A DNA stretch of 64,000 bases, from NCBI RefSeq assembly GCF_000160695.1, contig NZ_GG694006.1, positions 1-64,000 of the forward strand, in the 5' to 3' direction. Positions 50,885-58,835 of this stretch are shown here, one piece after another; the stretch's first letter is position 1; every line of letters begins with the position of its first letter. The position numbers and the translations under genes were made by a program. This DNA comes from Centipeda flueggei ATCC 43531. GTDB lineage: Bacteria > Bacillota > Negativicutes > Selenomonadales > Selenomonadaceae. The notes under the pieces were generated by a model. That model had not been told where the DNA came from and searched no databases. It was given only the letters and a program-made list of their open reading frames with translations.

Positions 50885-50902
50885 AATACAATATCTTGTA
50901 TT
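50885..50902. promoter_or_regulatory. Palindrome over the mnmA -35 box, candidate operator
   Basis: Perfect inverted repeat AATACAA-tatc-TTGTATT whose right arm contains the -35 hexamer. It sits in the divergent tmcAL-mnmA intergenic gap, where a repressor could act on one or both genes. Confidence 0.5.
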
Positions 50903-50924
50903 TTCGTAATGCGAATGCTATACT
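50896..50924 (+). promoter_or_regulatory. Sigma-70 promoter for mnmA, upstream of the repeat element
   Basis: TTGTAT at 50896-50901, a 17-base spacer, and TATACT at 50919-50924 with a TGC extended -10. The transcript would run through the whole repeat element at 50944-51104. Confidence 0.8.
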
Positions 50925-50943
50925 AAATTCACATTTGATTGAA

Positions 50944-51104
50944 GGAATCGCTGATAAAATGAAGTCCGTCAGATTAGCGTAGATTTTTTTGTCCGATTGA
51001 GGAGGAAAACCGGACGCATAGCCAAAGCTATGTGGAGGATCGCGGGCAAAAAGCGGGCAAAAAAGATGCGCTAAGATGGCGGTGCTGAATTTATCAGTGC
51101 TTCC
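50944..51104 (+). repeat. Long copy of a terminal-inverted-repeat element in the mnmA leader
   Basis: 161 bases with ends ggaatcgctgataaa and tttatcagtgcttcc (imperfect inverted repeats), the same ends as the 58-base copy at 58778. Inside, a second pair of inverted arms (ccgtcagattagcgtagat-T-run-gtccg, and a complementary cggg-caaaaaa-gatgcgctaagatgg) encloses small hairpins: gtccg/cggac and catagc-caaa-gctatg (51017-51032). A tandem gcgggcaaaaa pair is also present. tgaa flanks both sides, a possible target duplication. It has no coding capacity, so it resembles a MITE or a mobile structured RNA element. Confidence 0.75.
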
Positions 51105-51127
51105 TGAACTTCATGGTGGGACAGAGG

Positions 51128-52213
51128 ATGGAGAAACAACGTGTTGTCGTCGCGATGAGCGGAGGTGTGGACAGCTCGGTTACAGCTGCGCTGCTTCAGG
51201 AGCAGGGATATGAAGTCGTTGGTGTGACGATGCGTCTCTCGGAGGAGGGGCGCGATGCAGATCCTGATGGGCGCAGCTGTTGTTCTCTCTCGAGTGTGGA
51301 CGATGCGCGTCGTGTCGCTGACATCTTGGGGATTCCGCACTATGTGATGGACTTTACCGAGCCGTTTCAGCAGTTGGTGATTGACTATTTTACACAGGAG
51401 TACGCGCGCGGGCGCACGCCAAATCCGTGTATTGCGTGCAACCGTTATATTAAATTTGAAGGGCTGCTGGGAAAAATACGGGCGCTTGGGGCACAGCATA
51501 TTGCCACGGGGCATTATGCGCGGATCACACGTACAGGCGATGGGATCTATCATCTGCGAAAGGGAATTGATACGGCGAAGGATCAGTCCTATGTACTCTA
51601 TCATCTGACACAGAAGATGATGGATCACGTTCTCTTTCCGCTCGGAGATTATCGCAAGGATGAGATTCGGCATATGGCGGAGGACTATGGACTTCCTGTT
51701 GCTCACAAGGCGGAGAGTCAGGAGATCTGCTTTGTTCCCCATGACGACTATAAGTCCTACCTACGTATGCACGCACTGCAGACGATGCGGCCGGGGGCGA
51801 TCACGGATCGTGCGGGGCATATTCTCGGCACGCATGAAGGTATTGCCTTTTATACCATTGGGCAGCGCAGAGGACTCGGGATTTCGGCAGAGCATCCGCT
51901 CTACGTGATCGCATTGGATGCGGCTGAAAATCGTGTGATTGTCGGTGCGTCCGATGAGGTTTTTGCATGTGCGCTGACGGCATCCAATTTGAGCTGGACA
52001 CTGCCGCAGCCACCGCATGCGCCACGCAGCGTACGGGCAAAAATACGCTATGGAAAACGTGAGGCGGATGCGTGGATGGAGCCGCAGGGCGATGGAACTG
52101 TGGCGGTACATTTTTCCGAGCCGCAGCGTGCTGTGACGCCGGGGCAGTCCATCGTATTCTATGAGGGCGATGCCGTGTTGGGCGGCGGCAGCATCGACCG
52201 TGTGACACCATGA
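51128..52213 (+). CDS. mnmA: tRNA-specific 2-thiouridylase MnmA
   Basis: Makes 2-thiouridine at U34 of Lys, Glu and Gln tRNAs. 361 residues: PP-loop AMSGGVDSSV near 9-18, the catalytic cysteines in PNPCIACNRYIKF near 100 and SQEICFV near 200, IATGHYARI, KDQSYVLYHL, then the central and C-terminal beta domains (FYTIGQRRGLGI). ATG 51128 is preferred (MEKQRVVVAMSGG); ATG 51113 is possible. The start is 24 bases after the repeat element, so the leader is about 195 bases long. Confidence 0.97.
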   Translation: MEKQRVVVAMSGGVDSSVTAALLQEQGYEVVGVTMRLSEEGRDADPDGRSCCSLSSVDDARRVADILGIPHYVMDFTEPFQQLVIDYFTQEYARGRTPNPCIACNRYIKFEGLLGKIRALGAQHIATGHYARITRTGDGIYHLRKGIDTAKDQSYVLYHLTQKMMDHVLFPLGDYRKDEIRHMAEDYGLPVAHKAESQEICFVPHDDYKSYLRMHALQTMRPGAITDRAGHILGTHEGIAFYTIGQRRGLGISAEHPLYVIALDAAENRVIVGASDEVFACALTASNLSWTLPQPPHAPRSVRAKIRYGKREADAWMEPQGDGTVAVHFSEPQRAVTPGQSIVFYEGDAVLGGGSIDRVTP

Positions 52214-58777: not shown

Positions 58778-58835
58778 GGAATCGCTGATAAAACGAGGTG
58801 TGCCGGATGGTCGTACCGCATTTATCAGTGCTTCC
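58778..58835 (+). repeat. Short copy of the terminal-inverted-repeat element in the gatC leader
   Basis: 58 bases with ends ggaatcgctgataaa and tttatcagtgcttcc, identical to the ends of the copy at 50944-51104 over 15 bases on each side. The middle (acgaggtgtgccggatggtcgtaccgca) lacks the long internal arms of that copy. The RNA would fold as one long hairpin 27 bases before the gatC start. No target duplication is obvious. Confidence 0.78.

Follow-up and report, generated by a model that had tools for sequence, protein, structure and literature searches.

A 161-bp mobile element with a conserved, strand-specific fold in the mnmA leader

Described repeats and the element at mnmA

The closest precedents, as far as excerpts of the sources tell, are the bcr repeats and the Correia elements (PMC6542083, PMC3446304, PMC10969869, PMC2229807). 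The bcr repeats of Bacillus cereus are high-copy and MITE-like, as is the element described here. Repeats bcr1-bcr3 often lie in UTRs or operon gaps (PMC3446304, excerpt); bcr1 is linked to a TTTAT motif and confined to the B. cereus group (PMC6542083, excerpt). IS5-type ends are not described for bcr repeats in the excerpts of these two sources (PMC6542083, PMC3446304). The TTTAT association is absent from the present element, whose target profile is YTAR. Correia elements (NEMIS) of Neisseria are foldback MITEs of 100-200 bp with 24-bp ends and TA at the termini, according to the available part of PMC2229807. One of them sits downstream of the mtrCDE promoter, and RNase III cuts its transcript at the ends (PMC10969869, PMC2229807, excerpts). 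The present element, likewise a foldback MITE, differs in having 15-bp ends and a 4-bp duplication in place of 24-bp ends with TA termini. To our knowledge, Correia/NEMIS elements have no class-wide conserved core. REP (20-40 bp; PMC3733652, excerpt) and ERIC (terminal inverted repeats of 7 bp; PMC2229807, excerpt) resemble the element as small intergenic palindromic repeats. IS5-family IS and MITEs share with it 15-bp ends, a YTAR-type 4-bp duplication (the IS5 target is given as YTAR in an excerpt of PMC10359306) and, in sister species, a transposase gene between the same ends; unlike them, the element has a core unrelated to the IS interior and a fold conserved beyond the genus. A structured core with covariation is common to the element and to Rfam families, but no match to Rfam 15 at the gathering score was obtained at the mnmA element or at the copies of loci L428, L437 and L021. 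No such repeat was found among the open-access titles listed for Selenomonas or its class, Negativicutes, which does not prove its absence from the literature.

Positions 50944-51104 (+ strand) of the window, the whole stretch of 64,000 nucleotides analysed, are occupied by a 161-bp MITE copy, one of at least 40 in its own genome (nhmmer). The element goes beyond an ordinary MITE in that its fold is specific to one strand, is kept between genera and can be recognised in other families. It is read, at a probability of about 0.7, as a trans-mobilised MITE whose + strand fold, most likely as RNA, matters for its own spread or tolerance, and which is a recent passenger at mnmA. Such a gene-less core with a kept strand-specific fold makes the dependence of a mobile element on RNA or a folded single strand testable, and the covariance model serves the annotation of many intergenic repeats in relatives of Selenomonas.

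Borders exact, because family ends and TGAA on both sides fix them (target-site duplications 50940-50943 and 51105-51108, from the sequence and the copy list); the original prediction of a 161-base element had placed them correctly. Terminal inverted repeats, also predicted, are 15 bp long (GGAATCGCTGATAAA / TTTATCAGTGCTTCC): the left one, GGAATCGCTGATAAA at 50944-50958 (+ strand), is shared with the IS5-family IS of sister species, and the right one, at 51090-51104, reads GGAAGCACTGATAAA on the - strand (end pattern, copy list). The structured core (50959-51089, + strand) forms one long rod and scores 125.7 bits with covariance model R1, of which the mnmA copy is one of the 31 building rows. 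The predicted nested inverted arms are real, the whole element being one rod in the fold; the energy is -71.1 kcal/mol for 50940-51118 (z -6.34), and none of 200 shuffles is as stable. GA faces GA on the + strand in three internal loops: 50961-50962 against 51087-51088, 50972-50973 against 51075-51076, and 50982-50983 against 51065-51066. The apical hairpin CGCATAGC-CAAA-GCTATGTG lies at 51015-51034 (+ strand; helix 4, 98.6% of cells paired). It is one of two inner hairpins originally proposed; the second is an alternative pairing, GTCCG/CGGAC, and is not a family feature, because it occurs in 20 of 35 own copies, 7 of 20 copies of genome G047 and 0 of 17 copies of genome G058. An 11-base tandem repeat, GCGGGCAAAAA twice at 51042-51063 (+ strand), is present as noted before, but is peculiar to the mnmA copy among the 40 own copies aligned. 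No ORF reaching 60 aa is contained in the element, in agreement with the predicted lack of coding capacity; its last 34 bases also belong to a reverse-strand ORF (51071-51742). With the letters TGATAAAAT, the left end resembles an extended -10, and a promoter scan gave nothing on the + strand there. A promoter of the element's own at this end may be entertained as an idea from the letters.

The element sits, as predicted, between a good promoter and the mnmA start codon. The promoter (50896-50924, + strand) consists of TTGTAT (50896-50901), 17 bp and TATACT (50919-50924); a counterpart is kept 5' of mnmA in all 14 genus genomes, with small hexamer changes, and a stricter consensus promoter scan does not have TTGTAT-17-TATACT among its predictions. 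A likely ribosome-binding site, GGTGGGA (51115-51121, + strand), was read from the sequence and fold and is outside the rod. The gene mnmA, for tRNA 2-thiouridine(34) synthase, extends over 51128-52213 (+ strand; NCBIfam NF001138, 443 bits, cut-off 284) from a chosen start, 51128, in a frame that opens at 51113, 3' of the element. Present in 14/14 genus genomes. The closest relative, G010 (91% MnmA identity), has a leader continuous through the target, an empty site. In G011 a full copy, flanked on each side by TTAA, lies 5 nt closer to the promoter; at the G011 position, G007 retains 23 bp that are read as an element remnant. Full copies are thus found in 2 of 14 leaders and a remnant in 1; the ten remaining leaders besides that of G010 have nothing, so that 11 of 14 are without a copy. 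A conserved mnmA leader was thereby ruled out. The own and G011 insertion points are 5 nt apart, and therefore most likely represent separate events. The mnmA insertion is recent, as the empty site in G010 indicates. A lone right end, TTTATCAGTGATTCC, was seen by eye upstream of the mnmA promoter in L216 (G005).

Copies, targets and mobilisation

The own genome (2,163,132 bases, 8 contigs) has 41 matches at E<=0.001, one of them a short overlap on the reverse strand and the others 40 distinct places; with 40 of 109 candidates scored, the copy number is at least 40. The end pattern GGAANNNCTGATAAA occurs 90 times, against 0 for the reversed control. A first survey gave a match in 14/14 genus genomes and in 0/27 genomes outside the genus; matches in G003 and G013 are short (28-42 bases). 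Further genera (G047; G058/G079) have the full-length element, 68-87% identical, with the same ends and YTAR-like targets. The proposed search with the 15-base ends finds a multicopy element; the pattern that would have spoken against the original prediction, one copy per genome conserved at mnmA in all relatives, is not what was observed. Phage and plasmid records gave no match to the element at E 1e-5. Odd scan matches, in Nitrospira and two Clostridia MAGs, have no covariance-model match at E<=1; one of the three is a weak nhmmer match of 27 bases and 8.1 bits.

Exact 4-bp duplications flank 105 of 187 distinct full-length genus copies, against 1, 3, 1 and 3 at four control offsets. The 187 copies were gathered by similarity and so lean to the consensus; copies with a score <70, partial ends, N, short flanks or repeated flanks were dropped. 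The target profile of the genus copies is YTAR; TGAA at mnmA is a near-match, off strict YTAR.

A transposase with the same ends is found in relatives. DDE_Tnp_1 is present in 6 of 14 genus genomes (profile search). Both element ends surround the transposase gene at 6 of 27 DDE_Tnp_1 loci, in sister species, each unit being 1235-1247 bp; the predicted possibility of an IS sharing the ends is thereby confirmed, in the form of an IS5-family IS of ~1.24 kb. The 332-aa products of two IS copies scanned, L069 and L073, belong to the IS5 family (NCBIfam NF033581, 309 and 294 bits, cut-off 140) and carry DDE_Tnp_1 plus DUF772 by Pfam. Common to IS and MITE are the terminal 15-18 bases alone. For MITEs moved by DDE transposases, only the ends are usually thought to be needed. 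The IS transposase as query matches in 8 of 14 genus genomes; no matching transposase was found in the own genome with this query or the DDE_Tnp_1 profile; among copy-rich genomes, G000, G002, G005 and G010 gave none. The end pattern is frequent without the transposase (G010, 100 + 95; G005, 87 + 83; G002, 69 + 73). Three explanations offer themselves: recent loss of the transposase from the own genome, its absence from draft assemblies, or the use of another enzyme. Mobilisation in the own genome is argued from relatives, because no matching transposase is found there. The original suggestion of a MITE holds: the element is short, non-coding and multicopy, its ends are those of an autonomous IS in sister species, it makes IS5-type 4-bp duplications and its site is empty in the nearest relative.

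Mechanistically, an IS5-family DDE transposase would act in trans on the 15-bp ends of this non-autonomous element of ~161 bp; insertion would occur at YTAR-like tetranucleotides, followed by their duplication. The + strand fold of the single-rod core has been kept by compensatory change across genera, and in other families it is joined to diverged ends. At mnmA the copy would lengthen the 5' leader and leave promoter and ribosome-binding site in place. It would presumably put a long hairpin into the mnmA mRNA and could be an RNase III or stability element by analogy with Correia; an effect on mnmA mRNA is conceivable because RNase III cutting is reported for Correia at mtrCDE.

Several copies and related elements have unusual settings. 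A 58-bp short element at 58778-58835 (+ strand; end pattern) carries the two ends of the MITE around a different short centre; its likes in the own genome are at C6:232290, C8:801433 and, by end pattern, C8:1102110. Two opposite-orientation copies at L045 (G000 C7:346009-347197) flank ~870 bp, a possible composite unit. The L034 copy (G000 C8:1166083-1166245) interrupts a cluster of ten tRNA genes; it lies on the strand opposite to them, with tRNA-Asn and tRNA-Gln as its neighbours. Longer variants of ~280 bp (L294, L295; G058) match only ~41 nt of each end. Both flanks of the L241 copy (G047) are ~92% identical to those of the L109 copy (S. massiliensis), of a different genus; exchange of the region between genera may be the cause, as far as sequence can tell.

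The folded core and its breadth

The rod is kept by compensatory change. Among 40 own copies, 93.7% of rod cells are paired, with 106 both-side changed cells against 39.2 in shuffles. Alignment A2 holds 72 copies of three genera: 35 of the 40 own copies (five diverged or deleted omitted), 20 of G047 and 17 of 20 of G058 (three variants omitted); alignment A3 holds 31 of these 72. The 72 copies have 353 both-side changed cells against 123.3 (sd 8.4) when shuffled, none of 500 shuffles, which do not keep the relatedness of copies, being as high; sliding the partner gives 22-63. Paired cells make up 94.4% against 38-48% when slid, a comparison with a lean towards the true register, since folds of these very sequences supplied the structure. 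RNAalifold finds compensatory change at 27 of 50 pairs in the same alignment. A tally based on RNAalifold (GU 997 vs AC 59) was set aside as evidence, because the structure was chosen with G-U allowed; an unbiased register gives a modest excess.

The + strand is the more stable one. Mean folds of + and - strands are -73.0 and -46.5 (187 genus copies), -75.6 and -45.6 (20 copies) and -83.3 and -55.3 kcal/mol (17 copies), and the + strand is more stable in 186/187, 20/20 and 17/17 (223/224 together). The asymmetry is due to G-U pairs and to the GA/GA internal loops, which lie 10-11 nt apart. Their six GA dinucleotides are present in 64, 67, 71, 71, 72 and 58 of the 72 copies. Symmetric double-stranded protein sites were ruled out as the cause of the GA motifs: GA faces GA, and such sites would pair in the foldback. 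Covariation and strand asymmetry, both expected of a functional structured RNA, are thus found. Retention of the fold through sequence change points to selection on the folded strand itself, and it would follow that the folded + strand matters to the spread or tolerance of the element and not to its neighbours. The mobile RNA of the original prediction is supported in part, by the conserved, covarying + strand fold, the RNA being putative.

The fold is recognised in five families. The proposed covariance model was built from the core with the ends left off (31 sequences, 131 positions, 47 pairs). It matches 107 of 380 class genomes and 34 of 102 genera at E<=0.001, with at most 8 candidates scored per genome and E-values that are rough because calibration was short. 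By our own tally, 74 genomes match at E<1e-12, 62 of the own family and 12 in four other families. Weak matches may be mere hairpins, because 24-34 bits are reached even by the reverse strands of true copies. In 20 copies from five other genera of the own family the rod and its GA loops recur, the GA of the two inner loops being present in 17, 20, 18 and 18 of the 20; the ends are mostly of the GGAANNNNTGATNAA type, several being variant. A sample of 400 kb from two genomes of other families gave four matches at E<=0.1 (86.3, 47.6, 37.6 and 20.9 bits). The best (G142, 86.3 bits) shows this rod and these GA loops between ends GGGAGCC...GGCTCCC; in that of G201 (47.6 bits), whose ends are GGAGCCGCTGCTTTA / TAAAGCAGCGGCTCC, agreement with the lower rod is poorer. 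The claim for other families draws on the few copies read and on the class table of the core model. An old class-wide mobile structured RNA is a tentative extension, at somewhat less than even odds: a rod with regularly spaced tandem GA motifs would have moved through the class inside ends that transposases recognise, changing its ends, keeping its fold and needing its RNA for spread. The transposase, or a host protein that binds or processes RNA, would be the partner of such an RNA.

Timing of constraint and rival explanations

Constraint is clear in spreading lineages. On internal branches of the tree of 187 copies, changes per column number 1.0 for GA (13 of 16 columns never changed), 0.7 for ends and 2.87 for other core; on terminal branches, 3.19, 3.93 and 4.9. 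Among 251 insertions, 19 ortholog pairs have both flanks in common; 2 of these pairs were dropped as redundant. The 17 pairs have changed in 1.85% of GA, 2.16% of end, 5.07% of paired and 7.8% of unpaired positions (GU 30 vs AC 13). In the 11 cleanest pairs, after masking of the scan motif (22 columns), changes are found at 3/132 GA against 40/1064 other core positions (p 0.62), at 7/330 end positions, and at 32/747 paired and 8/317 unpaired positions (GU 15 vs AC 10, p 0.42), no structure effect. That constraint bears on the spreading lineages and not on the inserted copies is weakly indicated either way; constraint on inserted copies too would fit the terminal-branch GA value (3.19 vs 4.9) and the 17-pair values for GA, unpaired positions and GU/AC. 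The lower divergence of inserted copies than of flanks within 100 bp (117/2728 vs 216/3365, 17 pairs) was set aside, because loci were fetched by element similarity and, in 6 of the 17 pairs, the two copies are not near-reciprocally closest.

An ordinary palindromic MITE, with a foldback that is a by-product of origin, a fold free of selection and subfamilies that differ by descent only, would account for the clean ortholog pairs and for near-neutral pair changes on terminal branches (WC-to-GU 114 vs WC-to-AC 92, p 0.14, in a register defined without favouring G-U), and bacterial MITE transcripts generally form long stem-loops (PMC2229807, excerpt). It is distinctly unlikely, as both-side changes far exceed shuffled and slid controls, internal branches show a GU excess in the same register (WC-to-GU 41 vs WC-to-AC 22, p 0.02), GA/GA mismatches and strand asymmetry are conserved, and the core is recognised in other families. 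The folded strand could also act as single-stranded DNA in transposition or replication and not as RNA. DNA parameters likewise favour the + strand (-35.7 vs -24.7; -37.4 vs -23.4), insertion is orientation-neutral, and tandem GA pairs are stable in DNA too; but G-U pairs are frequent in the arms, and we know of no use of a folded single strand in IS5-family DDE transposition with 4-bp duplications, so that DNA is unlikely to be the form that matters.

Orientation is telling also against co-option as a cis-regulatory leader, whether of mnmA or of genes at large, in which the transcribed rod would regulate the gene downstream. The genes following the copies, which the original prediction had proposed to inspect, were surveyed by orientation (157 copies with enough flank, 150 classified, 5 without flanking ORFs, 2 inside an ORF; 31 copies in the own-genome classification): tandem copies are sense in 44 cases and antisense in 44, 34 are divergent and 28 convergent, and there is no sense preference. 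A regulatory role suits the position between a conserved promoter and the start codon, the G011 copy and putative G007 remnant in the same leader, and the capacity of Correia elements to act so (PMC10969869, excerpt). The leaders without a copy, the empty sister site and the differing insertion points nevertheless make it very unlikely, and co-option at mnmA, as originally proposed, is not upheld. ORFs, called by length only, end within 10 nt of the element 55 times and start there 30 times, which would be expected were YTAR a frequent source of stop codons.

The trans-mobilised MITE with a selected + strand fold remains preferred also over the least probable explanation considered, an rRNA-operon spacer hairpin that turned mobile and is recognised by the same RNA-processing enzyme. 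The 16S-23S spacer of L021 (G013) has hairpins and a core match at 861-986, 1109-1234 and 1461-1590. Two of its rods stop 8-9 nt short of tRNA genes, their apical parts have 22 and 35 nt in common with the element of genus g46 (91 and 89% identity), and a 91-bit core match lies just before the 23S gene, all of which would suit a spacer origin. The two tRNA-side matches, at 30 and 25 bits, are nevertheless in the range of reverse strands of true copies, the other rRNA spacer examined (L458, G142) has no match, and the 91-bit match, whose inverted ends are degenerate by eye, may be no more than an insertion. Positions 1-200 of the window, before the 5S rRNA gene, are by eye rich in hairpin-like inverted sequence.
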